From: Cliona cf. orientalis
Taxonomy: Eukaryota > Porifera > Demospongiae > Clionaida > Clionaidae
Direction of reading: 5' to 3'
DNA length: 64,000 nucleotides
Assembly: GCA_963930775.1 (NCBI GenBank)
Contig: OZ005695.1
Span: 7,006,001-7,070,000 of the forward strand
The position numbers and the translations under genes are program-made. The notes under the pieces were generated by a model, which was given only the letters and a program-made list of their open reading frames with translations, was not told where the DNA came from and did not search any database. Shown here piece after piece: positions 12,101-37,593 of this stretch. Each line of letters starts with the position of its first letter. Positions within the stretch are counted from its first letter, which is position 1.

Positions 12101-14675
12101 AGTGATACAGTGAATAGCCTTCCCTTTTGAATGTCAGTACTTGTTTGATGGGTACAGTTGGGTTCATTATTGATGCAAATGCACACTCGCACTGGATTAG
12201 ATGATATTGAGATGTTTGTTCTGAGCTTTATGTCTGTGACATTGTAATATTGTGAATTATAAGGAGTTGATACATCGTAAAAGTACATAATTCCATTGCC
12301 ATCATTCTCAAGGTCATATTGGCTAGGCTCATCAAGTGGATGTTTGTTACGTACTTCAGCAAATAGACTCACAGCACATCTGTCTAGCAATCCTCCATAG
12401 AGAGTAGACGCTGAAATGGCAGCGTAGTTATTTGAGAAATGCATGCTCTGTGTTCTGCCAGCGAAAATATTACTATACAGAGTCTGAACTATATTAACGT
12501 CATACAGAGCTAGCACTTGAAAAAAACACTCTGCATTTGATTCACTTGAACACGATGTCCCCGAGTTGCTGTTATCATCCACATATACTGCTCCACCATA
12601 CTCAGCGATGTTAGATATGAATATGGATGTGTTGGTTTCGCGCCTATAGATAGGATAGTGACTGTATTTCAGTATGTAGAGTTTGGCATTTGCTTCCAAT
12701 GACAATCCACCACCTCTTTCAGCTCGATTTTTTATAAAGTACAATTTAGATCCAGTATAAAAGCGTATTCTGGGGTCCCTTACGCAAGAACACAAATATA
12801 TATGATCTGAAGCAGCCTTGACAGATGAGCTAACTGCATGGATTCCTCCTCCTTTATATGTTGCTGTGTTATTGACAAGTTTAAATATGCTCAGCCTTTG
12901 GTAGTTGATTTCACTGTTTAAGAAGTACACACCTCCCCCATTTCCAGATGCTCTGTTGTGTTCAATTGAAAGTCGACCATTCACAACAATTTTGCTCTCT
13001 ATAGAACGTATAGCTCCGCCATTATTGGCAAAGTTGTATTGAAAATAACAATAACCATCAAAGAACATATTACTCTGAAACAAGGTCACTGCACCTCCTT
13101 CTTCAAATTCAGGCATGGTACTTTGTGCTGGTTGATTGTTCTCAAATCTAACATTATAACCCATCAAGGTGATATTACTGTTGAATGCCAATAGTGATCC
13201 CAAGTTGTTTGAAAGTATAGCATATCCTGAATAGTGTGCTCTAAACGTGGAATCAGTTACATAAATGATAGCGTATCTACCAGCCGAGTTGTTAGCTACT
13301 CGAAGGGTATTTCGATATTGCAGCACTGAGTCAACTTGAGCATAAATAACAGCTCCAATTGGTGCACTGTTGTTAAAAATTATACCATCATCAATTTTTG
13401 CAGTGCTATTATCAATATAGAGTACACCTCCATGCTGGTTGGCTTTGTTGCTGTGAAATGAAGTGGATGTTATTCCAGTTGTGCTATTGTAAGAGCACAG
13501 AGCTCCCCCATACTCGCCAGCAGTATTGCCAAACAGTTTACTCTCTTCAATTATCATATCACTAGAATAAATACATATTGCTCCTCCGTAACTGGTTGCA
13601 TTATTGTTCATAAGCACCGTACCATTCCTCACACCAATGGTGCTATATTCTGCAAATATTGATCCACCAAAATCTGCACCATTGCTTTCAAACACACTTT
13701 GAATGATTTCAATCTCACAGTGTGCGGCAAAAATTGCTCCACCAACACTGTCAGGGGCGAATGCTGGTACAGATCCAGGTATAAAACCTTGGAAGTGATA
13801 TCTAGTATTTGCTCTCACTGACCCTCCTTTATTGGATACAAAAGTGCTGTTGACAATCTGTGCTCTTGTTTGAAAGTGTATCAGTGCTGAATTTCTGATT
13901 AGCCACCACTGCTGTGATGATTCTTCACTGATTCCTAGACCTCTGAATGATGTAATGCTGACTACAAATTTGTTTACATTCTCCACTCGATTGCCCCTGC
14001 ATCCAACAAACTCCAAATCAGTAATGTGAATGTATTGTAATTGTCTGAAATAGAAATTGTGCGACCTATCTGTGCACACAATTCGAGCGGTAGTGTATTC
14101 GGAGTTCATCATAAAGCTGTTTTGATTTGTGATTTCTAGTTTGATATTGAGATAGTGTGTTCCAGGGAGGAAGACCAGTGTCATGTTGGAGTGGAGAGAA
14201 CGGCTCGAGTTAGCAGCAAATTGGGAGAGGGTTAGACATGGCTGCACAGAACAAAGGTCAGTTGAGTTTCTTGTTATGTACTGTACCTCACTGTTTGTTT
14301 GCTTGAGAGAGCAGAGGAAGAACACTGCTATGTATATCGTGAAGAGACCAAACTTGGAAAGATACATCCTGCTCTCGATGAATGTTTCAGCTTATGTTGC
14401 TTTCAAGTGCCAGTATTTATCACTACTATCACACTGTTACATACTGATACAGTAGCTGGTTATCTAGGAAGGTGAAAGGACCTTATGCCGTATTAAATCT
14501 GAATTGGATTTCTGCTTCAATGATGCCTGTCAACTGAATATCATTGGATCGGTAGCTGTCTTTTAACTGAATCAGACATACCAAATGAGAGCTTAAGTAG
14601 CTAGCTAGCCTTGAAATTAATGTGCTATTGCTATCAGATTCTAGAGATTACATTTTCGTGGTAAAATTAGGACAT
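9191..14675. repeat. Tandem duplication, unit 2
   Basis: Partner of 397-5,835 in direct orientation. Coding parts are nearly identical, while noncoding flanks carry more small indels. It contains the longer and more intact receptor gene. Confidence 0.9.
10162..14367 (-). CDS. Beta-helix ectodomain, multi-pass membrane receptor (copy 2, one in-frame TGA)
   Basis: A single-exon minus-strand gene of about 1,401 codons starts at 14,367. Residues 1-26 are a signal peptide. About 60-630 is a right-handed beta-helix of the Pmp/polymorphic-membrane-protein type, with repeated GGA(I/V), NNxA and SNxA turns and many N-glycosylation sites. About 640-936 is a cysteine-rich region (CTCLIG.., CICECH, CPFDYC). 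A TGA at 11,557-11,559 follows LLC. The same frame then continues without break to 10,162: a GCC2/ephrin-receptor-like cysteine motif (SCQPGLSLSLGSSRCLPC), eight or nine membrane spans, and a ~90-residue cytoplasmic tail rich in K, P and S. Relatives of this architecture carry CG at the TGA position, so GGA to TGA is the simplest change. It is probably a cell-surface receptor or sensor; ligand and signalling are unknown. Alternatives are a dead gene, readthrough, or two proteins. Confidence 0.7.
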
Positions 14676-18031: not shown

Positions 18032-18039
18032 GCAAAACT
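18032..18039. repeat. 8-bp target-site duplication, left
   Basis: GCAAAACT lies directly outside the left terminal repeat and is repeated exactly at 37,586-37,593 directly outside the right terminal repeat, as expected from a DNA-transposon insertion with an 8-bp staggered cut. Confidence 0.8.
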
Positions 18040-18149
18040 GGCTAATACTTCATGTAAGAGTCACAATTAATGAATATCATTAAACTTTACTTAATTTGTT
18101 GTAATACTCATCTACTACTGCATAATTATGTTAATATATTATTGCAATT

Positions 18150-21100
18150 ATGTTACGTCAATAACTACAGTCCCATCAATAACTACAGTCTCAATAGTCA
18201 CTACTGTCTACTACAGTACCACCAGTCTCCATTGTCACATCAATAACTACAGTCTCATTGGTCACTACTGTCACATCAGTAAGTACAGTCCCATTGGTCA
18301 CTACTGTCACATCAGTAACTACAGTCTCAATAGTCACTACTGTCAACTACAGTCCCACCAGTCTCCACTGTCACATCAGTAACTACAGTCCCACAAGTCT
18401 CTACTGTCACATCAGTAACCCATTGGTCACTACCGTCTCATTAGTAACTGCAGTCCCATCGGTCACTATTGTCACATCAGTAACTACAGTCTCAATAGTC
18501 ACTACTGTCAACTACAGTCCCACCAGTCTCCACTGTCACATCAGTAACTACAGTCCCATTGGTCACTACTGTCACATCAGTAATTACAGTCCCATTGGTC
18601 ACTACTGTCAATTACAGTCCCACCAGTCTCCACTGTCACATCAGTAACTACAGTCCCATTGGTCACTATTGTCAAGTCAGTAACTACAGTCTCAATAGTC
18701 ACTACTGTCATCTACAGTCCCACCAGTCTCCACTGTCACATCAGTAACTACAGTCCCATTGGTCACTATTGTCACATCAGTAACTACAGTCTCAATAGTC
18801 ACTACTGTCATCTACAGTCCCACCAGTCTCCACTGTCACATCAGTAACTACAGTCCCACAAGTCTCTACTGTCACATCAGTAACTACAGTCCCATTGGTC
18901 ATTACCGTCTCATTAGTAACTGCAGTCCCATCAGTCACTATTGTCACATCAGTAACTACAGTCTCAATAGTCACTACTGTCATCTACAGTCCCACCAGTC
19001 TTCACTGTCACATCAGTAACTACAGTCCCACAAGTCTCTACTGTCACATCAGTAACTACAGTCCCATTGGTCATTACCGTCTCATTAGTAACTGCAGTCC
19101 CATCAGTCACTATTGTCACATCAGTAACTACAGTCTCAATAGTCACTACTGTCAACTACAGTCCCACCAGTCTCCACTGTCACATCAGTAACTACAGTCC
19201 CATTGGTCACTACTGTCACATTAGTAACTACAGTCTCAATAGTCACTACTGTCAACTACAGTCCCACCAGTCTCCACTGTCACATCAGTAACTAAAGTCC
19301 CATTGGTCACTACCGTCTCATTAGTAACTGCAGTCCCATTGGTCACTATTGTCACATCAGTAACTACAGTCTCAATAGTCACTACTGTCAACTACAGTCC
19401 CACCAGTCTCCACTGTCACATCAGTAACTACAGTCCCACAAGTCTCTACTGTCACATCAGTAACTACAGTCCCATTGGTCACTACTGTCTCATTAGTACC
19501 TGCAGTCCCATCGGTCACTATTGTCACATCAGTAACTACAGTCTCAATAGTCACTACTGTCAACTACAGTCCCACCAGTCTCCACTGTCACATCAGTAAC
19601 TGCAGTCCCATTGGTCACTATTGTCACATCAGTAACTACAGTCTCAATAGTCACAACTGTCAACTACAGTCCCACCAGTCTCCACTGTCACATCAGTAAC
19701 TACAGTCCCATTGGTCACTATTGTCACATCAGTAACTACAGTCTCAATAGTCACTACTGTCATCTACAGTCCCACCAGTCTCCACTGTCACATCAGTAAC
19801 TACAGTCACATAAGTCTCTACTGTCACATCAGTAACTACAGTCCCAATGGTCACTATTGTCACATCAGTAACTACAGTCTCAATAGTCACTACTGTCAAC
19901 TACAGTCCCACCAGTCTCCACTGTCACATCAGTAACTGCAGTCCCATTGGTCACTATTGTCACATCAGTAACTACAGTCTCAATAGTCACAACTGTCAAC
20001 TACAGTCCCACCAGTCTCCACTGTCACATCAGTAACTACAGTCCCATTGGTCACTATTATCACATCAGTAACTACAGTCTCAATAGTCACTACTGTCATC
20101 TACAGTCCCGCCAGTCTCCACTGTCACATCAGTAACTACAGTCACATAAGTCTCTACTGTCACATCAGTAACTACAGTCCCAATGGTCACTATTGTCACA
20201 TCAGTAACTACAGTCTCAATAGTCACTACTGTCTACTACAGTACCACCAGTCTCCATTGTCACATCAATAACTACAGTCTCATTGGTCACTACTGTCACA
20301 TCAGTAACTACAGTCCCATTGGTCACTACTGTCACATCAGTAACTACAGTCTCAATAGTCACTACTGTCAACTACAGTCCCACCAGTCTCCACTGTCACA
20401 TCAGTAACTACAGTCCCACAAGTCTCTACTGTCACATCAGTAACCCATTGGTCACTACCGTCTCATTAGTAACTGCAGTCCCATCGGTCACTATTGTCAC
20501 ATCAGTAACTACAGTCTCAATAGTCACTACTGTCAACTACAGTCCCACCAGTCTCCACTGTCACATCAGTAACTACAGTCCCATTGGTCACTACTGTCAC
20601 ATCAGTAATTACAGTCCCATTGGTCACTACTGTCAATTACAGTCCCACCAGTCTCCACTGTCACATCAGTAACTACAGTCCCATTGGTCACTATTGTCAC
20701 GTCAGTAACTACAGTCTCAATAGTCACTACTGTCATCTACAGTCCCACCAGTCTCCACTGTCACATCAGTAACTACAGTCCCATTGGTCACTATTGTCAC
20801 ATCAGTAACTACAGTCTCAATAGTCAATACTGTCATCTACAGTCCCACCAGTCTCCACTGTCACATCAGTAACTACAGTCCCACAAGTCTCTACTGTCAC
20901 ATCAGTAACTACAGTCCCATTGGTCATTACCGTCTCATTAGTAACTGCAGTCCCATCAGTCACTATTGTCACATCAGTAACTACAGTCTCAATAGTCACT
21001 ACTGTCATCTACAGTCCCACCAGTCTCCACTGTCACATCAGTAACTACAGTCCCACAAGTCTCTACTGTCACATCAGTAACTACAGTCCCATTGGTCATT

Positions 21101-22107
21101 ACCGTCTCATTAGTACCTGCAGTCCCATCAGTCACTATTGTCACATCAGTAACTACAGTCTCAATAGTCACTACTGTCAACTACAGTCCCACCAGTCTCC
21201 ACTGTCACATCAGTAACTACAGTCCCATTGGTCACTACTGTCACATTAGTAACTACAGTCTCAATAGTCACTACTGTCAACTACAGTCCCACCAGTCTCC
21301 ACTGTCACATCAGTAACTAAAGTCCCATTGGTCACTACCGTCTCATTAGTAACTGCAGTCCCATCGGTCACTATTGTCACATCAGTAACTACAGTCTCAA
21401 TAGTCACTACTGTCAACTACAATCCCACCAGTCTCCACTGTCACATCAGTAACTACAGTCCCACAAGTCTCTACTGTCACATCAGTAACTACAGTCCCAT
21501 TGGTCACTACCGTCTCATTAATACCTGCAGTCCCATCGGTCACTATTGTCACATCAGTAACTACAGTCTCAATAGTCACTACTGTCAACTACAGTCCCAC
21601 CAGTCTCCACTGTCACATCAGTAACTGCAGTCCCATTGGTCACTATTGTCACATCAGTAACTACAGTCTCAATAGTCACAACTGTCAACTACAGTCCCAC
21701 CAGTCTCCACTGTCACATCAGTAACTGCAGTCCCATTGGTCACTATTGTCACATCAGTAACTACAGTCTCAATAGTCACTACTCTCATCTACAGTCCCAC
21801 CAGTCTCCACTGTCGCATCAGTAACTACAGTCACATAAGTCTCTACTGTCACATCAGTAACTACAGTCCCATTGGTCACTACCGTCTCATTAGTAACTGC
21901 AGTCCCATCGGTCACTATTGTCACATCAGTAACTACAGTCTCAATAGTCACTACTGTCAACTACAGTCCCACCAGTCTCCACTGTCACATCAGTAACTAC
22001 AGTCCCAATGGTCACTATTGTCACATCAGTAACTACAGTCTCAATAGTCACTACTGTCAACTACAGTCCCACCAGTCTCCACTGTCACATCAGTAACTAC
22101 AGTCCCA
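18150..22107 (+). repeat. Satellite array, left arm
   Basis: About 4 kb of head-to-tail repeats. The base unit is 36 bp (contains GTAACTACAGTCCCATTGG then TCACTACTGTCACATCA), with a sister 36-mer (..GTCTCAATAG..) and a 28-mer (..CCCACCAGTCTCC..). 36+36+28 make a 100-bp unit seen many times. A higher-order period of 2,025 bp is visible: 18,182-20,206 recurs from 20,207 onward, including rare variants such as 'gtctactacagtaccacc' and the truncated 'cagtaacccattgg'. The many 60-130 codon frames in it are by-products of the 3-divisible period and should not be annotated as genes. Confidence 0.95.
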
Positions 22108-22120
22108 TTGGTCACTTGAA

Positions 22121-24440
22121 ATGACTATTAAAAGAATGAGATGGGAACACTACATGCAAAGAAAGAGAATGTATCAGTGCGCAATTGATAATTCGAAGAA
22201 ACTGAGAGACACAACACTTGAACATCCAGTATTTGCTGAGCTTAATATCATTGTAGAGAAACATGTTCCGAGTAATGACATTATAGCCAAATGTTTTTTG
22301 TCAAAATTTCTAGAAAATGAAGCACACTACAGACATAATATACATTCTACAAACACAGGGCATGCACCTAGCTTTGATCACACATTCAAAATTGCAGCTA
22401 ATATCGGCTATTTACGTGCAGATAATAAATGGATACCACAATATGACAGTGCCTTTTTTGTTTTCAATTCTCAAGGTAATATTCTCACTTGGCAGTTTAC
22501 TAAAGGAACAAGCTTTAATCAAGTTGAACCATTACTAATATCAATAAAAAAAACAAGCAGAAAGGCAAGGCAATGTTATAGAGACTATTTATATTGATAA
22601 CTGTTGCCAATGGAAAAAATTACTTCAGAAGGTTTTCGGTGCAAGTGTGAAAGTGAAATTAGATCTATTTCATGGGGTTCAGAGGATTACAAGGCACATG
22701 AGTAAGCGACATGAATTCTATGGACAGTGTGTGAGTGATATTCGATTAGCATTTCGCAAAAAAGAAGATCAAGGTAAAAAAAGAACACAGTTAACTCCTG
22801 AACCCGATGAAATTGCAAGCAATCTTGATCAATTTTTAAAAAAATGGCAAAGTATTAATGGTGACCATGGCAAAATATTATCAAGTGAAACTATCCGTGA
22901 GGTGCAGAAATTGAAACTCCATGCAAGTAAAGGATGCTTAAGTGGGATAGAGGTTGGAGGAGGGACGAACAGGAATGAAGCCTTTCATAGATATATAAGA
23001 AATTTTTTCCATAAAAGTAGACTGGGTGTACTTCTTGCCTATGCTCTTATGATGGTGATAGTTTGCAATTTTAATGAAAAAGGTAATGTAGGCAAATATT
23101 TTGATATTAATCAGACATGCATTGGAGAAGACGACAACAGACGGCAAGAATTCTTAGGACCCTATAATATAACTGATTGTGATACAATACACAGTGACAG
23201 TTACACTCAGGATGTATCCTCAGATTCCATAGATACTGATAATGTAAAGTGTATCGTCACAACTGCAGTGTCTCAGTATGCACTATCAAACTTGATTCAG
23301 CAACAAACAAACACAGCAAGTAACTTCTTCAAGTACGCTCCATTTAGTAAAATAATGAGATATCAAGATATCATGACTCCAAATGAAACAGAAGACAGGA
23401 TTCAAGGTGACAAAAGTAGATTAGAGAGCATTCTCAAGTCATGGAATTTCATTTTAGAACCGGTAAGAGGTGATGGAAATTGTTTTTTTGTAGCCATAGC
23501 ACTAAATATTCTTCATAATATTGACAATCGAGCAAATTTGATGAATAAACTTAATGTGGATGAAAGTGAACCAATAAGTATTTTAATACAAAAATTAAGA
23601 GAACTATTGGTACAGGAATGGTTAAGCCCCAACAGAAGTGAATATGATTTTTTATGTGAAGAGGAATCGTATGAAGAAGAGGCAAGAAAGTTTCTCAGTG
23701 ATGGTTATTATGCAAGTGCTCTTGGCGATTCGATGCCATTGGCTATGGCTAATGTGCTCAATAGCAATATTGTGATATTTCGATCAACCCCTGCTGCCCC
23801 AATTACCTACATTAGTCTGAAAGAGAGTCCAGAGTTTGTTATGTTCCTAGCATATACAGCTAGTGGACCTGGACATTATGACAGTGTTTTGTATGCTGGA
23901 ACTCAGATTGATAATTTTCAAACAACACACTCAGATACTAAATGTAGATGTGGAGTGAATGTTAAAGACAAAACTACGAATGCTTGCATTCATACGACCC
24001 AAAGGCATTCAAAGTGCAAATGTTTAGCTGCTAAACAGCCATGCTCTAACTTGTGTGGCTGCAAAGGCTGCACTAATCCATTTGGTAATAGAGTTGTGCT
24101 TGGGAAAAGAAAAAGAGAGCCGCACAGCTGGCAACAGATTGATTGTTGCAATGAGTCATTCATGTTAGAGCGAGGACAAGTGAAGGTTGATGGTTGCTGG
24201 TCCGATTTTGAGACTATAGTGTTAATTAATGTAATTTGTTACTGCAATATAGAAGATTTGGCAACATCTGCAAGTGAAATTCAGGCTATGTATAATGAAG
24301 TGGTCGTATTTGTCCATGCCCCATATTGCTCTATTCAACTTCCTCAGGCAGCATTACTAAGGAAAAAATCAGAAAGGCAAATGAAGTCAAAGCTTGATCA
24401 CCTACTTAGTGAACTGAACCTGTTGAAGCGGTTTCAATAA
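22121..24440 (+). CDS. DDE-type transposase fused to OTU protease and CXC domains
   Basis: It begins 14 bp after the satellite. Frame 1 (22,121-22,597) ends shortly after an A8 run (22,546-22,553). The sequence resumes in the +1 frame, open from about 22,554 to 24,440 (RQGNVIETIYIDNCCQW then KVKLDLFHGVQRI). The likely catalytic acids are D in DHTFK (residue 86 of the first frame), D in KLDLFH and E in GGTNRNEAFH; the last two are residues 6 and 111 of the frame counted from the ATG at 22,647. Next is an OTU cysteine-protease domain: GDGNCFF (Cys 279 in that count) to GPGHYDSV (His 410). A tesmin/TSO1-like CXC cluster follows (about 433-480; KCKCLAAKQPCSNLCGCKGC). The C-terminus is about 110 unrecognised residues. 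It probably encodes the element's transposase, with OTU acting on ubiquitin and CXC binding DNA. The frame break may be a sequencing indel, slippage at A8 or inactivation. Confidence 0.75.
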
Positions 24441-24639
24441 TTAATATTATTCAGAAACAACAGAAATTATACCAGCTCTGTTCTCCATTGTCACGTACAA
24501 TACTAATTAATTATATCTGCATGCATGCATGCATGGTGAAAGAGGGATAATTATATATAATATACAGTATCCATTGAAGATCCGGAGTATTTTTTTCCGG
24601 ATTCTGTAAAAATTTACACTTTAATGAACCGAGGGTAGC

Positions 24640-25320
24640 TTAGGATCTTACCATCAGCTTAGGATCTAAGCCAACCTCCACTTAGCTTAGAATCTAAGCC
24701 ATGGCAGTACCATCACTTTAGGATCTATATAAGACAACCTCCGCTTAGCTTAGAATCTAAGCCAGTACCATAAGCTTAGGATCTAAGCCAACCTCCGCTT
24801 AGCTTAGAATCTAAGCCAGTACCATCAGCTTAGCATCTAAGCTACCAGTATTTAAGCCACCGTCCGCTTAGGATATAAGCCAACCTCCGCTTAGGATATA
24901 AGCCACTAGTATATAAGACAACCTTGGCTTAGAATCTAAGCCAACCTCAGCTGCTTATGATCTAAGCCACTAATATCTAAGACAACCTTGGCTTACAATC
25001 TACATATAAGCCAACCTCAGCTGCTTAGGATCTAAGCCACTAGTATCTAAGACAATCTTGGCTTAGAATCTAAGCCAACCTCAGCTGCTTAGGATCTAAG
25101 CCACTAGTATCTAAGACAACCTCAGCTTAGGATCTAAGCCATTCTCAGCTGAACATTTTATCCAGTTCCATCAGCTTAGGGTCTAAGCCAGTCATGACTT
25201 GGGAATTACAGCTGAGGATCTAAGTCACCACCGATGTTGGCACAATAGCTTGCCTTATAATTAAGCCACAAACTACTTGAGCATAACCACTAGCCTACTT
25301 GAGATACAAGCCACGTGGTC
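24640..25320. repeat. TAAGC palindromic minisatellite, left arm
   Basis: About 15 imperfect repeats of 40-50 bp built from GCTTAGGATCTAAGCC and GCTTAGAATCTAAGCC, each itself a near-palindrome (GGCTTAGAT/ATCTAAGCC), joined by 'aacctc(c/a)g' linkers. It starts just after 'ccggattctgtaaaaattta' and 'gaaccgaggg', which also occur inverted near 32,930-32,960 in the right arm, beside a much shorter repeat remnant. Single-stranded DNA or RNA from it would fold into serial hairpins. Confidence 0.85.
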
Positions 25321-25689
25321 AGCAGCTCATCACCAAGACCATTAATTAAAGTATGTACCTGAGCACTATTGTTACATTGTATGCTGTTGACTTCTATGCA
25401 CGGATTTTTTTTTTGTTCACTTGCATTAATTTTACTATAATGTATTTTCAAGTTATGTTATGAACATACACCAGGTCCTATTTTGGTGAATTTTAATAAA
25501 AATCCCTTTTCTTGAAATCAGTCAATTGGCAATGCATGATGATACAATAGGGGACAATTATGATAACTACAGTAATAATATTAAAACTTGCAAGATTTAG
25601 TGTGTTGAATGATGCTAATCAATAACTAGAAATAAATCCATAACAATTAGTGCTTATTAAGTCTGTTCAATATACACATGTAGAAGAGG

Positions 25690-28340
25690 ATTTTGAGTTT
25701 AACTATTTCGGTATAGTACACATCTTGCAGCATTTTTGGTCTCATTTGTACACCCCACACTTTCTAGGTACCAAACCCATACAAGTACTTTTGTTCTTGT
25801 GTCTATAACCATAGTCTAGAGTGGTGTAAACAGTAGGCATGGCATTAGTGACTTCTGTGTGTGTGAGGATGAGCATTTGTATGTACTTCAATGTTATTGT
25901 ACACATCTTGTAGCTTTCTTGGCCTAATTTGTACACCCCACACTTTCTAGATACCAAAGCCATACCAGCACATTCGCTCCTGCGTCTGTAACCACAATCT
26001 AGAGTGGTGCAAACAGTGGGCATGGCATCGATGACTTTTGAGTGTGTGAGGAGCATTTTGTGTATACTTCATGTCAATCGATACTGTACACATTTTGTAG
26101 CTTTTTGGTCTCATTTGTACACCCAAAAGTTTCTGGGCACCAATATCAAAACATTACCTTTGTTCTTGTGTCTATAACCATAATCTAGAGTGGTGTAAAC
26201 AGTGGACATGGTATTGGTGACTTCTGCGTGTGTGCATTCTGAGAATTTTCCATGCAATCATCTACATGTATACATAGTACATATTTCTAAGCGTTTTAGC
26301 TCTCAATTCTTCACATGGCATCCCTTAACTTCCAAACTTGAACAGTACCTTTGTCTTGATGTTAACAATCATACTTCTGAGTTATATTGACTGGCGATGT
26401 AGTTGAAGCATGTTCTGTGCATGTGAGTATGAGAATATCTTGTGCAGATGCATTCACAGTAATCGGTACAATTATTATAGCTTTTTAGCTCTCAATTTCA
26501 CATACAACATCTCTGGAGTGCCAGACTTGATCAGTATCTTTATTTTGATGTCTTTCACCATAACCTAGAGTGGTGTAAACAGTAGGCATGGCATTGGTGA
26601 GTGTGTGAGGATGAACATTTTGTGTGTACTTCAAGTTAGTCAATACTGTACACATCTAGTAGCTTTTTTGGTTTCATTTGTACACCCCACACTTTCCAAG
26701 TATCAAATACCTTTATTTTGATATCTATATTCATAATCTATAGTGGTGTAAATAGTGGGCATGGTATTGGTGACTTACTATGCATGTGTATATATTCTAA
26801 GTTTCCATATTATGTGCGTACATCAGTAATCCGTACAATTTTTATAGCTTTTAAGCTCTAAAATCTTCACACATCATCTCTGAAGTTCAAAATTTGATCA
26901 GCAGCTTTGTCTTGATGTTAAAAATCATATTTCTGAGTTTTGTCATCTGGCGATGTGGTTGAGGCATGTTCTGTACATGTGAGTAAGAGAATTTCCTGTG
27001 CACCTGCATGCATTCACAGTAATCGGTCCGATTTTCACAGCATTTCAGTTCTAACATCTTCATATAACATCCCTGAAGTTCCAAACTTGATCAGTACCAT
27101 TGATTTGATGTTAATAATCATATTTCTGACTTTCGTTAACTAGCGATGTGGTTGAAGCATGTTGTATGCACATGTGAGTATGAGAATTACCTAATATAGC
27201 ACATGCATTCACGGTAATCGATGCAATTTTAGTAGCTTTTCAGCTCTCAATTCCACATACAACATCTCTGGAGTACCAGACTTGATCAGTACATTTGTTC
27301 TTGTGTCTATAACCATAATCTAGAGTGGTGTAAACAGCAGACATGGCATTGGTGACTTCTGTGTGTGTGAGGATTAGCATTTTGTGTGTACTTCATATTA
27401 ATCGGTACTGTACACATCTTGAAGCTTTCTTGGTCTCACTTGTACACCCCACACTTTCTAGGTACCAAAACCATACCAGTACAGTTGTTCTTGTGTCTAT
27501 AACCTTAATTTAGAATGGTGTAAACAGTGGACATGACATTGGTGACTTACTCTGCGTGTGTATTCTAAGAATTTTCCAGTGTACACACATTCACAGTAAC
27601 CAAGGTACAACCTTCATAGCTTTTTAGCTCTTAATTCTTCACATATCATCTACAAATTTCCAAACTTGAACAGTACCTTTATCTTGATGTTAACAATCAT
27701 ATTTCTGAGTTTCGTCAACTGGCGATGTGGTTGAGGATTGTTCTGTACATCTGAATATGAAAATATCCTGTGTACATGCAATCACAGTATTCAGCACAAT
27801 TTTTTAAAGCTTTTTAGCTATCAATTCCACATACAACATCTCTGGAGTGCCAGACTTGATCAGTATCTTTATTTTGATGTCTATAACCATAATCTAGAGT
27901 GGTGTAAACAGTAGGCATGGCATTGGTGACTTTTGAGTGTGTGAGGATGAACATATTGTGTGTACTTAGCATCAATCGATACCGTGCACATCTTCTAGCT
28001 TTTTTTGTCAAATTTGTACACCCAACAGTTTCCAAGTATCAAAACCAGTCCACTACCTTTATTTTGATGTCTATAATTATTCATAAACTATAGTGGTGTA
28101 AACAGTGGACATGGTATTGGTGACTTCTGTGTGTGTGAGGATGAGCATTTAGTGTATACTTCATGTCAATCAATACTGTACACATCTTGTAGCTTTTTTG
28201 GTCTAATTTGTACACCCCATACTTTCTAGGTACCAAAACCTGACCAGTACCTTTGTTTTTATGTCTGTATTCATAATCTAAAGGGGTGTAAACAGTAGTC
28301 AAAAGGAAAGATGGTTTATGTATGAGAATTCTAATCAATG
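25690..28340 (-). repeat. Interspersed ~200-bp repeats, left arm
   Basis: Two unit types alternate. Type 1 contains 'tttgtacaccccacactttc', 'ctataaccataatctagagt', 'ggtgtaaacagt' and 'ggcattggtgacttctgtg' (about 190-200 bp, at least eight copies, for example near 25,745, 25,930, 26,120, 27,440 and 28,200). Type 2 contains 'cattcacagtaatcggtac', 'tttttagctctcaattc' and 'gcgatgtggttgaggcatg' (for example near 26,450, 26,990, 27,180 and 27,780). The same units appear reverse-complemented at 29,160-32,215. There is no coding signal. Confidence 0.9.
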
Positions 28341-29159
28341 GAGAATTTTTTGTCAGTATGTAACGAGAGAGAAACACAAGCAAACTCATACAAATCAAAA
28401 TCCAATTAATAAATCTTTGAACCTTAAATTAATATGTGTATTATAATATTATCATATAATATTATGATAGGTCCAGCGTTAGATCATACACTATGGTGAT
28501 TGAGCATCTATACATTATGTGGTTTTACTAGTAGATGTACTTCACCTAATCAGTGTATAAGGCACTTGAACTACACCATGTGTGTGTACTCTGTGGTGAC
28601 CACAATATCATAATCATAGTATTAAGAGGGGCATATGCTCTGTGGAATTATGAAGTACTGCACAGAGGAAAATTACTACCATGCAATCACTAGCTAGCTC
28701 AGTACCACCATACATGCTATTATTATGGCTGGTTCATTTTCCCTATCACTTACTTCTTAGTATGCCTACCTTTTGGTTACATGTAGGTGTTAATTAAATT
28801 AGAGGGCATTGATCATTTACATGATCATGTAAGTATGTATACATGTGTACATGTACACATGTAGTGTATCTATAGACACAGAATTGCATGTGCATGTGTA
28901 AAACACATGCCATGTAATATACATGCATATGATATGAGTGTGAATGTAAGCTATGTGTGTACATGTAAATACCTTAAATCAAACCAAAACCCAACCCAAA
29001 CCCAAACCCACTCACGTCACACACACACACACAAACACATGTACACACAACACTACTAACATACACACACATGCACGCACTTCATAGCTTAATTGGAAAC
29101 ATCCTCTCTCACAGCCTATTTAACACAACATGTGAGCACATACAGAGGTATAAAGTAAA
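28341..29159. other. Centre of the giant inverted repeat
   Basis: About 0.8 kb at the orientation switch. It is AT-rich with short palindromes (gtacatgtacacatgtac-like around 28,850), a GT/CA-rich strip (29,015-29,075) and 'aacccaacccaaacccaaac' near 28,987-29,006, which superficially resembles a telomeric repeat. No gene is visible. Confidence 0.6.
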
Positions 29160-32100
29160 AATGTGGCGTGCACAAATGAGACTAAGAAAGCTACAATAAT
29201 AATATTATGTGTACAGTACAGATTAATATTATATGAAGTACACACAAAATATTCATCCTCACACACACAGAAGTCACGAATGCCATGTCTACTGTTTACA
29301 CCACTCTAGACTATGGTTATAGATATAATAACAAAGTTACTGATCAAGTCTGGTGCTCCAGAAATGTTGTATGTGGAAGTGACACCTCAAAAGCTAGTAC
29401 TAATTATACTGTGAATGCATGTGCACAGGAAACTCTCATACTCACATGTGCATAACATGCCTCAACCACATCACCAGTCAATGAAACTCAGAGATTAACA
29501 TTAAAATAAAGATACTGATCAAGTTTGGAACTTCAGGGATGTTGTGTGAAGAATTGAGAGCTAAAGAGCTACGAAAATTGTAGGATTACAGTGAATGGGT
29601 GTACACATGGAAAATTCTTAGAATACACACACACAGAAGTCACCAATGTCATGTCCACTGTTTACACCACTCTAGATTATGAATATAGACACAAGAATAT
29701 AAAAGGTACTGGTATTGCGTTGGTACCTAAAAAGTGTGGGGTGCATACACGTACACACAAAAGTCACCAATGCCATGTCCACTGTTTACACCACTCTAGA
29801 TTATGAATATAGATCTACAAGAACAATGGTACTGGTCTGGTTTTGGTATCTAGAAAGAGTGGGGTGTACAAATGAGACCAACAAAGCTGCAAAATGTGTA
29901 CAGTACAGATTAACATAACTTAAGTACATACAAAATGTTCATCCTAACACACACAGAAGTCACCAATGCCATGACTACTGTTTACACCATTCTAGATTAT
30001 GATTATAGACACAAGAACAAAGGTACTGGCATTGTGTCTGGTGTACGTACTCCAGAGATGATGCATGTGGAATTGAGAGCTAAAAATCTCTAAAAATTGC
30101 ACCCATTACTGTGAATGCATATGCACAGGATAGTATCATACTTACATATGCAGAACATGCCTCAACCACATCGCCAGTCGACGAAACTCAGGAGTATGAT
30201 TATTAACATTGAGATAGAGTTACTGATCAAATTTGGAACTTCTGGGATATGTCGTGTGAAGAACTTAGAGCTAAAAAGCAAGAAATGTGTATACGTACTA
30301 CATGTAGCTGATTGCATAGTAAATTCTTAGAATACATACAAAGAAATCACCAGTACCATGTCGGACTCCACTGTTTACACCACTCTATAGATTATGAATA
30401 TGGACAGGTACTGGTCTGACTTTGGCACTTAATAGAAAGTGTGGAATGTACAAATGACCAAGAAAGCTACAAGATGCATGTGTACAGTATCGATTAACAT
30501 GAAGTACATATAAAATGCTCATCTTCACACACACAGAAGTCACCAATACCATGTCCATTGTTTACACCACTCTAGATTATGAATATAGACACAAAAACAA
30601 ATGTACTGATCTGATTTTGGTACCTAGAAAAAGTGGGGTGTACAAACGAGACCAAGAAAGCTACAAGATGTGTACGGTATCATGACATTGGTGATTTCTG
30701 TGTGTGTGTGAGGATGAGCATTTGTGTACATACTTCATGTTTACTTAATCGATACCGTACACAGAGCCCTGAGTCTTTTAAATCACGTAGAAACCTCCTA
30801 AATGCAGTGTTGTCTAACTTTAATATTACATAGTATACCATGCACTCTAATAATTATAGCTAATATTATAGACTCTAGTTTATGAATAATACTACACAGT
30901 GTCTAGAGTGCCGGCAAATTTATGTAGAAATTTATATTGCCATATGCAGGAGGGGGTGGGGACTATATAGAGTTACGTAAGAGTATACAGTATTTTATAT
31001 GGACTTACCGGAACTATATATAATGCTTAAATTGCGGTGCCGGTATACCGGCACTGTTACAGTAGACACAGAGATAATAATAATATAGACATAAGATCAA
31101 AGGTCTGTTTATGGTATCTAAAAAGTATGGGGTGTACAAATGAGACCAAGAAAGCTATAAGATGTGTACTATATATATAAGATGCCATAAATTTTTATTC
31201 GAAATGCTCTTCTAAATTGAACAGACTTAACAAGCACTATAAGTATTTGTATATACCGTATAGCGTGAAATTTTCAAGGGAGAAAACTTTCGCAGATCGG
31301 TAGGGAAGGAGCATTTCACGAAGAAAACTTTCGCGGAATGTTAAAACTGGTCGCATAGAATTTCATGGAGAAAACTTTCACGGATGCATGGCGGGAAAAT
31401 CCCGAAATTCGTGTAAGTTTTCTCCCTTTGAAAGTTTCCCGCTATACGATAGTTATTGATTACTATCATCCAATACACAATTCTTGCTTGCTTTAGCTAT
31501 TATAATATTATTATATTCTGTTAATTCCCATAATCAATAGTATTATTGTATTATTGCATTATAATAATATTTTATAGGTTATTAATATAATCATAAAATT
31601 AATTGTCCCATGCAATATCTTCATGCTATTATAGTATTATTGATGATTTGGAGTTGTATTATTAATTCTCAAAATTAAAAAGCTACAAAATGTGTACAGT
31701 ATCGATTGACATGAAGTATACACAAAATGCTCATCCTCACACACTCAAAAGTCACCAATGCCATGCCCACTGTTTACACCACTCTAGATTATGGTTACAG
31801 ACACAGGAACGAATGTACTGGTATGGTTTTGGTACCTATACAAAGTGACACTGTGGGGTGTACAAATTAGACCAAGAAAGCTATACAAGATGTGTACAAT
31901 AACATTGAAGTACATACAAATGCTCATCCTCGCACACACAGAAGTCACCAATGCCGGCCATGCCTACTGTTTATACCACTCTAGATTATGGCTATAGACA
32001 CAAAAACAAATGTACTCTTATAATTTTGGTACTGGAAATTAAGTGTGCAGTGTACAAATGAGACCAAAAAGCTTAGGGCCTACAAGATGTGTACAGTACG

Positions 32101-32215
32101 GATTAATAATATGAAATGCACACAAAATGCTCATCCTCACACACACAGAAGTCACCAATGCCATGCCTACTGTTTACACCACTCTAGACTATGGTATAGA
32201 TGTGATAAACTACCG
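29160..32215 (+). repeat. Interspersed ~200-bp repeats, right arm
   Basis: These are the same two unit types as 25,690-28,340 but in the opposite orientation ('ccactgtttacaccactcta', 'tgtgtacagtatcgatt', 'gaagtacacacaaaatg', 'cctcaaccacatcgccagt'). They are interrupted by a MITE at 31,256-31,449 and an AT-rich strip at 30,840-31,090 and 31,450-31,680. Together with the left set they form an inverted repeat several kilobases long. Confidence 0.9.
31256..31449. mobile_element. MITE with CGTATAGCG ends (family R3), copy 1
   Basis: The left end CCGTATAGCGTGAAATTTTC and the right end (reverse complement TCGTATAGCGGGAAACTTTC) are both followed inward by 'aagggagaaaact'. TA flanks both sides (31,254-31,255; 31,450-31,451). 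It is 194 bp, non-coding, and has several internal 'gaaaactttcgc' repeats. Related elements lie at 42,829-43,325 and 52,264-52,467. It is nested in the giant element, so it is younger than that insertion or travelled with it. Confidence 0.8.
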
Positions 32216-32429
32216 TGAGCATGCAATCAAAGATAATTTAATTTAATACTTTAATATTATAAATTTAAAGCAGTAAGTATTATGATGCAGAAATCAGAAT
32301 GATAAAGTAATTATACTCTTGGATTAGACACTATTTTGCAAACACAGTCCATTAATTACAATAGATACTTGAAGAATTATTATATAATATCCATAACAAA
32401 AAAAGTTATCTCACAAATATAATAATAAG

Positions 32430-32590
32430 TTTGAATAAAGCAAAGATTCATTGCAGCAGACAACTTAAATGTTCGGTAAAACTTGCCGACGTTTCGAATA
32501 GATGCTCTAGTCATCCTCAGTGCATGTAGCTATGTAGATTATAACTGAGAACAATGTCACAATATTAAGTTTGATAAAGTTTACTATGAC
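32430..32590 (-). ncRNA. Hammerhead-ribozyme-like motif in a repeat remnant
   Basis: The minus strand of 32,485-32,520 reads CTGAGGA, then a short helix-loop (TAGA-GCA-TCTA with a flanking G-C pair), then CGAAAC and GTC. CTGANGA...GAAA is the conserved hammerhead core, and CGAAACGTC with a tiny stem III is the arrangement seen in Penelope-like and retrozyme hammerheads. The surrounding 'aaaacttgccgacgtttcga' also resembles widespread Penelope-type repeat ends. The 10.1-11.1 pair is not ideal and stem I was not verified, so activity is uncertain. Confidence 0.3.
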
Positions 32591-32689
32591 AACAAAAATT
32601 AACATGATATTATTAATAGTTCACTAGTAATGTCACACTCCCTGCATATAGTAGACAACAATATAATTATTATTGTTATAGAGAGTTAT

Positions 32690-32960
32690 CACATGCACCT
32701 CAATGATCTTGGTGGTGAGTTGCTGATCATGTGGCTTGTATCTAATGTAGGCTATTGTTTTTGCTTAAGTTATTATGTATTATAGTTTGTTGCTTATAAG
32801 TGGAGAGTAGCTTTAAATAATTATTAGCTTAGATTCTAAGGCGAGCCACCCTTGCCTTAGGATCATCCTGTAATTATTAGCCGAGTGTGGCTTGGATATA
32901 CTAGGATCGTGAGCTGAATGCCCTCGGATTACTAAAGAGTAATTTTACAGATTCTAGAAA
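32690..32960 (-). repeat. Right-arm counterpart of the TAAGC region
   Basis: In reverse complement, 'agcctac.t.agatacaagccac' followed by 'tcaccaccaagatcatt' matches left-arm 25,287-25,345. 'gccttagaatctaagc' and 'tccgagggcattcagctcac' match 24,620-24,690. Only two or three TAAGC units remain here, against about fifteen in the left arm. Confidence 0.6.
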
Positions 32961-33789
32961 TACAGTTAATGTCGTGTATTTATCCCTGCAGTTATTATGA
33001 TTGTAGTATTACATGCATGTACAGTCACAATAATAATAATTATATTACTCCCATAGCCAAGAGTGTTTTTTGTGGTTGGTCAATAGACTAAGTAATATGT
33101 TATAGCACTTAATATAGTTGCTATTTTGGCTGCACCTTTGCAACTGCATGCATAAAATGTTTAGAGGTTAGATATTATTGTTTAATCTGTGGTAGCTACT
33201 TGATTTAGAAAACCTCAGGGCTCAGTAGAAACCCTAGCTCGTGAATATGTTAATCCTTGCAAAAAACAAATATTATATATACTGTCTCTATGTATTTTAT
33301 GTCATTACTTCAGTAACTATACACCAAAATAATTTATATATTCTGTTACTGTCTTGTTAAATTAAAAGATCATTTTAGCTAGACTAAGTGTATTAGTCAC
33401 TTTTGTAGCATCAATCTGTCACTGCATGTATTATTGTCACCTATCATTCGCTAATGGTATTTCAGTCTAATAATATGAAATTGTATAACAATTAATCATA
33501 CACTTCAAAGTACAATAGTAATTATTAGGGCAGTAATCAGTACGCTTACGTATGGACTACTGCTGCTGTACGTAATTAATTAGACCAAAGCAGGAGTATA
33601 CCGATTACAGAATGAGAGTACAATTATGAAATATTAGCGTAGGACAAACTCTATACTATTATTCACAAGTTTTAATCCTCATAGAATTAGGGCAGCATAA
33701 TTGTGTTCTCATAGTACTCACTGTTGCTCATGCTATTATTGACTGTATTAGTAATTACTGCTGGGACAATAATATTATTATAGTGACTC
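32961..33789. other. Non-repetitive strip of the right arm
   Basis: This AT-rich sequence sits where the left arm carries the transposase gene. I find no transposase remnant in it on either strand by eye, and no other gene. Confidence 0.45.
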
Positions 33790-36700
33790 AATTAAGGACT
33801 GTATTTATATACTGATGTGACAGTAGTGACTGATGGGACTGTATTTATGCATGATATGACGGTGGATACTGGTGGGAGTGTAGTTCCTGCATGATACAAA
33901 AATATAGTGACTAACAGGTCTATTAGTTACAAATGTGACAGTAGTGACTATTGAGACTGTAGTTACTTATGTGACAATAGTGGCTGATGGGACTGTAGTT
34001 ACTTGTGTGTTTGTAGTTACTGATATGACAATAGTGACTGATGGGACTGTATAGTCACTGATGTGACTGTATAATAGTGACTGGTGGGACTGTAGTTACT
34101 AATAATATGATAATAGTTACTGATGTGACTGTAGTTACTGATGTGACAGTAGTGACTATTGGGACTGTAGTTACTGATGTGACAGTAGTGACCAATGGGA
34201 CTGTAGTTACTGATGTGACAGTGGAGACTGGTGGGACCGTAGTTGACAGTAGTGACTATTGAGACTGTAGTTACTAATGTGACAGTGAAGACTGGTGGGA
34301 GTGTAGTTGACAATAGTGACCAATGGGACTGTAGTTACTGATGTGACAATAACGACTGATGTTACTAAGGTGACAGTAGTGACCATTGGGACTGTAGTTA
34401 CTGATGTGACAGTGGAGACTTGTGGGACTGTAGTTGACAGTAGTGACTATTGAGACTGTAGTTACTGATGTGACAATAGTGACCAATGGGACTGTAGTTA
34501 CTGATGTGACAATAACGACTGATGTTACTAATGTGACAGTAGTGACTATTGAGACTGTAGTTACTGATGTGACAGTGGAGACTTGTGGGACTGTAGTTGA
34601 CAGTAGTGACTATTGAGACTGTAGTTACTGATGTGACAATAGTGACCCATGGGACTGTAGTTACTGATGTGACAGTGGAAACTGGTGGGACCGTAGTTGA
34701 CAGTAGTGACTATTGAGACTGTAGTTACTGATGTGACAATAGTGACCAATGGGACTGTAGTTACTGATGTGACAATAACGACTGATGTTACTAATGTGAC
34801 AGTAGTGACCATTGGAACTATAGATACTGATGTGACAGTGGAGACTTGTGGGACTGTAGTTGACAGTAGTGACTATTGAGACTGTAGTTACTGATGTGAC
34901 AATAGTGACCAATGGGACTGTAGTTACTGATGTGACAGTGGAGACTGGTGGGACCGTAGTTGACAGTAGTGACTATTGAGACTGTAGTTACTGATGTGAC
35001 AGTGGAGACTGGTGGGAGTGTAGTTGACAGTAGTGACTATTGAGACTGTAGTTACTGATGTGACAATAGTGACCAATGGGACTGTAGTTACTGATGTGAC
35101 AGTGGAGACCGGTGGGACCGTAGTTGACAGTAGTAACTATTGAGACTGTAGTTACTAATGTGACAGTAGTGACCAATGGGACTTGAGTTACTGATGTGAC
35201 AGTGGAGTTTGGTGGGACAGTAGTTGACAGTAGTGACTATTGAAACTGTTGTTACTAATGTGACAGTAGTGACCAATGGGACTGTAGCTACTGATGTGAC
35301 AGTGGAGACTGGTGGGACCGTACTTGACAGTAGTGACTATTGAGTCTGTAGTTACTGATGTGACAATAGTGACCAATGAGACTGTAGTTACTGATGTGAC
35401 AATAACGACTGATGTTACTAATGTGACAGTAGTGACCATTGGGACTGTAGTTACCGATGTGACAGTGGAGACTTGTGGGACTGTAGTTGACAGTAGTGAC
35501 TATTGAGACTGTAGTTACTGATGTGACAATAGTGACCAATGGGACTGTAGTTACTGATGTGACAGTGGAGACTGGTGGGACCGTAGTTGACAGTAGTGAC
35601 TATTGAGACTGTAGTTACTGATGTGACAGTGGAGACTGGTGGGAGTGTAGTTGACAGTAGTGACTATTGAGACTGTAGTTACTGATGTGACAATAGTGAC
35701 CAATGGGACTGTAGTTACTGATGTGACAGTGGAGACCGGTGGGACCGTAGTTGACAGTAGTAACTATTGAGACTGTAGTTACTAATGTGACAGTAGTGAC
35801 CAATGGGACTTGAGTTACTGACGTGACAGTGGAGTTTGGTGGGACAGTAGTTGACAGTAGTGACTATTGAAACTGTTGTTACTAATGTGACAGTAGTGAC
35901 CAATGGGACTGTAGCTACTGATGTGACAGTGGAGACTGGTGGGACCGTACTTGACAGTAGTGACTATTGAGACTGTAGTTACTGATGTGACAATAGTGAC
36001 CAATGAGACTGTAGTTACTGATGTGACAATAACGACTGATGTTACTAATGTGACAGTAGTGACCATTGGGACTGTAGTTACCGATGTGACAGTGGAGACT
36101 TGTGGGACTGTAGTTGACAGTAGTGACTATTGAGACTGTAGTTACTGATGTGACAATAGTGACCAATGGGACTGTAGTTACTGATGTGACAGTGGAGACT
36201 GGTGGGACCGTAGTTGACAGTAGTGACTATTGGAGACTGTAGTTACTGATGTGACAATAGTGACCAATGGGACTGTAGTTACTGATGTGACAGTGGAGAC
36301 CGGTGGGACCGTAGTTGACAGTAGTGACTATTGAGACTGTAGTTACTAATGTGACAGTAGTGACCAATGGGACTTGAGTTACTGACGTGACAGTGGAGTT
36401 TGGTGGGACAGTAGTTGACAGTAGTGACTATTGAAACTGTTGTTACTAATGTGACAGTAGTGACCAATGGGACTGTAGCTACTGATGTGACAGTGGAGAC
36501 TGGTGGGACCGTACTTGACAGTAGTGACTATTGAGACTGTAGTTACTGATGTGACAATAGTGACCAATGGGACTGTAGTTACTGATGTGACAATAACGAC
36601 TGATGTTACTAATGTGACAGTAGTGACCATTGGGACTGTAGTTACCGATGTGACAGTGGAGACTTGTGGGACTGTAGTTGACAGTAGTGACTATTGAGAC

Positions 36701-37470
36701 TGTAGTTACTGATGTGACAATAGTGACCAATGGGACTGTAGTTACTGATGTGACAGTGGAGACTGGTGGGACCGTAGTTGACAGTAGTGACTATTGAGAC
36801 TGTAGTTACTAATGTGACAGTAGTGACCAATGGGACTGTAGTTACTGATGTAACAGTGGAGACTGGTGGGACCGTAGTTGACAGTAGTGACTATTGAGAC
36901 TGTAGTTACTGATGTGACCGATGGAACTGCAGTTACTAATGAGACGGTAGTGACCAATGGAACTTTTGTTACTGATGTGACAGTGGAGACTGGTGGGACC
37001 GTAGTTGACAGTAGTGACTATTGAGACTGTAGTTACTGATGTGACAATAGTGACCGATGGAACTGCAGTTACTAATGAGACGGTAGTGACCAATGGAACT
37101 TTAGTTACTGATGTGACAGTGGAGACTGGTGGGACTGTAGTTGACAGTAGTGACTATTGAGACTGTAGTTACTGACGTGACAATAGTGACCAATGGGACT
37201 GTAGTTACTGATGTGACAGTGGAGACTGGTGGGACTGTAGTTGACAGTAGTGACTATTGAGACTGTAGTTACTGATGTGACAATAGTGACCAATGGGACT
37301 GTAGTTACTGATGTAACAATAAAGACTGATAGGACTGTAGTTACTAATGTGACAGTAGTGACCATTGGGACTGTAGTTACTGATGTGACAGTGGAGACTG
37401 TGGTACTACAGTAGACAGTAGTGACTATTGACACTGTAGTTATTGATGGGACTGTAGTTATTGATGTAAC
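33790..37470 (-). repeat. Satellite array, right arm (inverted)
   Basis: Reverse-complement orientation of the left array, with the same 36- and 28-bp monomers. The inner 300 bp (33,790-34,090) are degenerate. Its higher-order structure differs from the left: a 627-bp period (34,988-35,614 recurs at 35,615) followed by a 564-bp version (35,715 to 36,279). Variants such as 'acgactgatgttactaatg' and 'gagtttggtgggacagtag' mark each period. It ends with 'gtggtactacagtagacagt' and 'ttattgatgtaacataattg', mirror images of the left array's outer edge. Confidence 0.95.
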
Positions 37471-37585
37471 ATAATTGCAATATGATTAATATAATTATGC
37501 AGTAGTAGAATATGAGTATTAAAATATATTATAAGAAAAGTTTAATGATATTCATTAATTGTGACTCTTACATGAAGTATCACCC

Positions 37586-37593
37586 GCAAAACT
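37586..37593. repeat. 8-bp target-site duplication, right
   Basis: GCAAAACT directly follows the right terminal repeat (..GAAGTATCACCC) and is identical to 18,032-18,039. Confidence 0.8.

Follow-up and report, generated by a model that had tools for sequence, protein, structure and literature searches.

The window analysed here is a 64,000-nucleotide stretch of the genome of the sponge Cliona cf. orientalis (C7:7006001-7070000, contig OZ005695.1; genome of 216.8 Mb in 149 contigs). Between positions 18040 and 37585 it holds what is strongly supported as a foldback DNA transposon with an 8-bp target duplication and satellite arms: it has long inverted ends bearing tandem repeats, a variable core and a duplicated target. 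We consider it likely that the element belongs to a DNA transposon lineage and is a damaged copy bearing the gene of that lineage; the transposase would work on tips of about 44 bp, with the satellite arms as subterminal sites. The element comprises the following features:

18032..18039, no strand: left 8-bp target-site duplication GCAAAACT, identical to the copy at 37586-37593
18040..18083, plus strand: left terminal tip, conserved over about 44 bp (genome tip matches and identity with sister-subfamily tips)
18164..22116, plus strand: left arm, a 36/100-bp satellite (the F1 satellite), from Tandem Repeats Finder and its inverted match to the right arm
22118..24437, plus strand: transposase gene without its 5' part and with one frameshift; D-D-E, DxxH, OTU and CXC regions present
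24563..32967, no strand: nested unrelated foldback N, with ends like AACAGTATCC... and flanks AATA and AATG (3/4 alike)
24649..25192, plus strand: TAAGC minisatellite belonging to N, from tandem-repeat and genome searches
25708..28301, plus strand: ~200-bp repeats, left half of N, from repeat and genome comparison
29158..32208, minus strand: inverted ~200-bp repeats forming the right half of N, from their inverted match
32968..33780, no strand: what remains of the core of the outer element on its right side, with one short match (61 bases) besides itself
33781..37458, minus strand: right arm, made of the F1 satellite in inverted orientation and degenerate as far as about 33924
37542..37585, minus strand: right terminal tip GGGTGATACTTC..., read at the element end
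37586..37593, no strand: right 8-bp target-site duplication GCAAAACT, identical to the copy at 18032-18039

Boundaries, target duplications and arms

The two ends of the element differ at 2 positions across their first 48 bp, and exact copies of GCAAAACT adjoin them. These results uphold an earlier note made from the sequence of the window, which had called the boundaries at 18040-37585 and claimed near-identical terminal repeats of about 50 bp and an exact 8-bp duplication. The same ends were found again across the genome, including copies carrying both ends with different 8-bp flanks, a check that the note had proposed.

Target duplications were compared in 16 loci of the window's own subfamily, F1 (the window and 15 loci fetched from the genome), in a related short subfamily, F3, and in a sister element, E2. 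Nine of the F1 loci were counted, with both tips read in the expected orientation; the seven left out include loci fetched on one side only and a C11 copy with a displaced and inverted left tip. Six additional single-tip loci were fetched, with the tip read in four, and were excluded from the count. Among the 16 element pairs for which both ends were read, 15 have exact 8-bp duplications (8 of 9 for F1, all six for F3, and CTTATAGA for E2), and the remaining F1 pair matches at 7 of 8 positions. A cross-pairing control gave no exact 8-bp match in 240 pairings, the best being 7/8, four times. In a duplication-length test of 15 pairs, 14 fitted 8 bp and none fitted 4-7 or 9-11 bp. The duplications contain 23% GC, compared with 40% for the window. 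In the C11 copy (C11:7444320-7444840, positions 120-640 of the fetched stretch L016), the left tip and its duplication are inverted and displaced, with the 8-bp sequence reversed; judged by eye, this is a rearrangement at a foldback end.

The satellite arms are opposed in orientation (18164-22116 versus about 33924-37458), and their best inverted alignment reaches 82% over 3,817 columns. Satellite arrays are difficult to assemble, and a search with the joined flanks showed no empty site: it matched both window flanks and 19 partial places in the left flank, none of which spans the junction. That the inverted satellite structure arose by chance or as an assembly artefact, and is not a mobile unit, is nevertheless highly improbable. 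The ends, the foldback plan and the 8-bp duplications recur at many loci, and in the stretches read the satellite was present in both orientations at 13 of the 16 F1 loci and in one orientation at three. The artefact was rejected on these grounds.

The earlier note had described a single unit of ~19.5 kb with every internal repeat class in both arms. The satellite and the ~200-bp repeats (25708-28301 versus 29158-32208) are indeed inverted, but the TAAGC minisatellite, 544 bp long on the left, has only a degenerate trace on the right, seen by eye near 32828-32920. A continuous unit was rejected, because the inner repeats are explained by a second foldback, N, nested in the first; copies of N occur elsewhere with their own ends and 4-bp duplications. 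Since the minisatellite and the ~200-bp repeats belong to N, 19.5 kb is a composite length, and the native length of the outer element is about 11.1 kb without N.

Six N-type copies read at both ends outside the window measure ~9.5-16 kb, all end in AACAGTATCCATTT..., and all six have exact 4-bp duplications. The window copy (24563-32967, 8.4 kb) is more diverged than these six, and would be an older foldback of a different kind that jumped into the outer element. Among the scored part of the candidates, at least 268 genome matches were found for window positions 25700-26260 and at least 77 for 24440-25700. N is a second, abundant foldback family, with ends AACAGTATCCATTTAAGATCC, the minisatellite and the ~200-bp repeats. 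A short repeat within it (30893-31045) has 88% identity to positions 163-305 of L016, in the flank of another F1 copy.

One tip with three satellites

A 30-bp tip pattern, allowing up to 3 mismatches, gave 50 genome matches (27 forward and 23 reverse), and the same pattern read backwards, used as a control, gave none. For the 171-bp end region at least 41 genome matches were found, with 40 of 48 candidates scored, and many of these pair in plus and minus orientation 0.9-20 kb apart. The tips fall into three forms, F1, F2 and F3, with 35-39 of 44 bases identical between forms; the left tip of the window copy agrees with those of the two sister subfamilies at 35 and 36 of 44 bases. A tip of ~44 bp is common to three subfamilies, and the inverted arms behind it are built of three different satellites: the 36/100-bp satellite in F1, a ~10-bp-based satellite in F2 (E2), and a ~70-bp satellite in F3 (two copies read whole). 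F1 arms at 13 loci are 0.07-8.2 kb long, mostly 1-5 kb.

The cores of 12 other F1 copies were compared. Eight have a common core of ~0.8 kb, and those on C3 and C9 have this core plus the same insert of ~4.5 kb; a copy at C2:8653 holds part of the ~0.8-kb core, and one at C1:7141 holds only short satellite-like pieces. Over 10,587 aligned bases the C3 and C9 copies show 99.1% identity, with different target duplications, one arm differing by 1.7 kb, and no similarity between their flanks of ~0.5 kb. Near identity with dissimilar flanks fits a recent movement of the whole unit, with arms changing by tandem units. The ~4.5-kb insert is present in both copies and so predates the duplication of the unit; in alignments of the C9 copy and the C3 copy (C3:4953393-4965755), the edges of this insert show an overlap of ~11 bp.

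When the first 130 bp were compared, a tip had its nearest relative in another element for 8 of 9 pairs; in the remaining pair, that of the C15 copy, the two tips are identical. This comparison suggests that arms are generally not homogenised within one copy. Short words common to the three satellites occur only or mainly in one orientation. The candidates are CAGTCCCA (F1 and F2), TCCCAGT (F2 and F3) and GTCTCC (all three); their sharing fits conserved binding words but does not prove them.

The gene between the arms and its sister copy

The earlier note had called the element gene-bearing. A transposase gene does lie between the arms, but its 5' part is missing and it has one frameshift, in an A-run at about 22547-22553; because of this damage the window copy is not autonomous as it stands. 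The reading frame opens at the arm junction, and the protein lacks the first 155 residues of a 932-residue relative to which it is 83% identical. The architecture consists of a DUF6729-like part, a DDE part, an OTU domain and a CXC region. We found 131 relatives, and analysed 51 chosen among the 120 listed. The window copy has the D-D-E and DxxH motifs, the Cys and His motifs of OTU and the cysteines of CXC; across the 51 relatives these are either invariant or conserved at 90% or more.

At E ≤ 0.01, the 51 relatives matched 10 Pfam families: MSL2-CXC (26 relatives), OTU (18), Peptidase_C65 (6), TCR (6) and DUF6729 (5), with single hits to Transposase_mut (E 0.0036), DDE_Tnp_ISL3 (E 0.0063), DUF6648, PMBR and Cas6_C, the last three probably by chance. 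Absence of a family from the VIA list does not exclude it. When nine relatives were scanned singly at the curated cut-off, an OTU-type or CXC family passed in five and DUF6729 in none. NCBIfam gave a single weak, unrelated match for four relatives.

An AlphaFold model of a relative, built from 59 sequences (pLDDT 84.9, pTM 0.78), shows a transposase-like fold. The top fold match of residues 21-477 is ISCth4, with a large rmsd of 5.3 and about 10% identity; the OTU and CXC parts lie outside this match. Residues from about 580 to 750 match OTU proteases. ISCth4 is a bacterial transposase of the IS256 family, and IS256 is related to Mutator-like elements (MULEs). By this predicted fold, the DDE part is of the IS256 kind. 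Viral and bacterial relatives were sought by pattern and rejected: tblastn confirmed none of the stretches matched, 54 of them in viral_contigs and 52 in genome_contigs, and the window protein alone gave no pattern match in viral_contigs.

Searches at the DNA level found three transposase loci in the genome, the window copy, E2 and a degenerate locus at C1:25519029, and no intact copy of the gene. Two of the three, the window copy and E2, sit between tips of the family. E2 is 25.6 kb long, and its gene adjoins the left arm in the same orientation as in the window copy. A large insert, at roughly 19688768-19702529, splits the OTU region, beyond which the gene resumes, CXC included; E2 would be about 12 kb long without the insert. 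On the minus strand of E2, between the CXC region and the right arm (C1:19705484-19706374, about 3185-4075 of the fetched stretch L059), there are broken frames with a P-loop motif, matching RNA_helicase (E 0.009) and DUF927 (E 0.034), both below cut-off. They may represent either a second gene of the element or one that was captured.

Several observations weigh against a lineage in which gene and ends belong together. Every Pfam match of the window protein falls below the curated cut-offs, and its DDE part alone matched no family in a Pfam scan. The genes of the window copy and of E2 are both damaged, and 8.5 kb read at the C1:25519029 locus showed no convincing tip. The gene occurs in one F1 copy only, and was not found in the fetched stretches of the 15 other F1 loci. 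The ~0.8-kb core present in 10 of the 12 other F1 cores, two with the insert, is unmatched in the window core; an origin of the short F1 copies as simple deletions of the window element was rejected for this reason. The satellite words are also weak evidence: F1 and F2 share 8 words of 6 bases, compared with a mean of 1.1 and a maximum of 5 in letter-shuffled controls, and at 7 and 8 bases the counts stay within the control maximum (3 vs 3 and 1 vs 2).

The presence of the gene in a single F1 copy, and the direct passage of the arm into a truncated reading frame, could also be explained if these foldbacks are non-autonomous and an unrelated transposase moves them, with the OTU/CXC DDE gene as captured cargo or an old insertion. 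We consider this unlikely. E2, with a different satellite, has a related gene at the matching place and in the matching orientation, which independent capture would not predict, and the fold predicted for the relative is transposase-like. The E2 protein is strongly diverged (41-45% amino acid identity), as is its satellite, and common descent therefore accounts for the shared gene position better than two separate captures would.

For the transposon lineage that we prefer, the following mechanism is proposed. An IS256/Mutator-like DDE transposase, with a DUF6729-like N-terminus, OTU and CXC, most likely recognises the ~44-bp tip; we infer that it is this protein that moves these ends. It would cut at the GG end, and insertion would be into AT-rich DNA, with a stagger of 8 bp. 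The satellite array, inverted behind each tip, most likely serves to supply many iterated subterminal sites, to which the protein may bind, by analogy with Galileo. The array sequence would drift and expand by tandem units, and subfamilies would thereby retain the tip and change the satellite. Most of the other F1 copies examined lack the gene, being composed of tips, arms and a short unrelated core, and are presumably moved in trans. The OTU domain may be an active protease.

Elsewhere in the window, two similar neighbouring genes on the minus strand (1411-5539 and 10165-14391) encode large proteins with a part that by eye resembles a membrane segment; one gene has its frame split into four pieces, the other into two. 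At 61040-61828, a 105-bp tandem repeat (61040-61565), read in frame, gives a repeating protein segment, and a hydrophobic stretch comes after it.

Relation to known transposons and significance

Inverted ends of short tandem repeats are also found in Drosophila FB/NOF elements, some copies of which bear genes. The body plan has a close precedent in Galileo, of the P superfamily in Drosophila, which likewise has long repetitive inverted ends, 7- or 8-bp duplications, and both transposase-bearing and arms-only copies (PMC3688188, PMC4168063, PMC3573991). Conservation of Galileo between species is confined to ~40 bp at the extremities, transposase binding sites are located in tandem repeats, and the inverted ends measure 0.5-1.2 kb (PMC3688188), with 4.2 and 4.7 kb in one gene-less copy (PMC4168063). 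The elements described here share the duplication length and the long repetitive ends, but Galileo encodes a P-element type transposase with THAP in the accounts cited, in place of an ISCth4-like DDE part with OTU and CXC. No THAP family is among the 10 Pfam families matched by the 51 relatives at E 0.01, and membership in the P superfamily was rejected.

Tetris of Drosophila virilis resembles the family in being a foldback with tandem repeats in its inverted ends and a link to satellite DNA, and differs in being apparently non-autonomous, with ~220-bp repeats (PMC4079207). The paper on Ginger elements, which are DNA transposons, has 17 mentions of OTU, but their transposase is by description Gypsy-integrase-like (PMC2836005). 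Rehavkus is Mutator-like with a minisatellite beside one end; it differs in its 9-bp duplications, its PHD finger and a minisatellite placed only before the 3' end, as summarised in PMC6446971. Membership in Rehavkus was rejected, with none of 15 pairs at 9 bp and no PHD family among the same 10 families. The 8-bp duplications given for KDZ/Zisupton in PMC12730594 agree with those found here; at E 0.01 no KDZ-named family is among the 10, in a comparison that contained no Zisupton sequence.

Tm1, a Mutator/foldback element of root-knot nematodes, has composite inverted ends with a variable number of short repeats, transposase-bearing, MITE-like and other groups, and duplications of similar length (PMC3169594). 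The present family may be a known kind of MULE foldback such as Tm1, merely another species' family. This is a question of naming, compatible with the transposon lineage proposed above, and we regard the placement as possible and somewhat doubtful. The exact 8-bp duplications lie within the MULE range of 8-11 bp given in PMC6446971, the DDE part aligns to ISCth4, and two of the 51 relatives match Transposase_mut and DDE_Tnp_ISL3, one each. The other relatives, however, have no Mutator-type Pfam match at E 0.01, the duplications of Tm1 are mostly 9 bp and its motif is ~14 bp (PMC3169594), and neither the MULE survey (PMC6446971) nor the Tm1 paper (PMC3169594) has the term OTU in its main text. 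A duplication of this length is compatible with MULE, P and Zisupton alike, and the predicted fold points to the IS256/Mutator side; the family is not filed as a MULE because the profile evidence is too weak. A separate, superfamily-level eukaryotic lineage of IS256-like transposases, with its own OTU-type deubiquitinase and CXC, is put forward only tentatively; the long inverted satellite arms of its elements would here be iterated binding platforms whose sequence is replaced between subfamilies.

The earlier note's suggestion that such an element is undescribed does not stand, because the body plan equals that of Galileo (PMC3688188, PMC3573991, PMC4168063) and Tm1 (PMC3169594), known transposase-bearing foldbacks with repeat-filled inverted ends. 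The features that look new are the architecture of the transposase, the length of the arms and the turnover of satellites behind a conserved tip. The architecture seems not yet to have been named: a PMC literature search for DUF6729 returned no paper, and one for OTU, CXC and transposase returned no title or abstract start suggesting it, though a Repbase entry may exist.

The link to real transposon ends allows an unnamed protein family to be annotated as a likely transposase. One tip with three satellites offers a natural series for the study of satellite arrays inside transposon ends, in which it can be asked whether the arrays serve as binding platforms, arise as by-products when inverted DNA is repaired, or give rise to genomic satellites. 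The presence of an OTU domain prompts the testable idea that a transposon may oppose ubiquitin-dependent control by its host.

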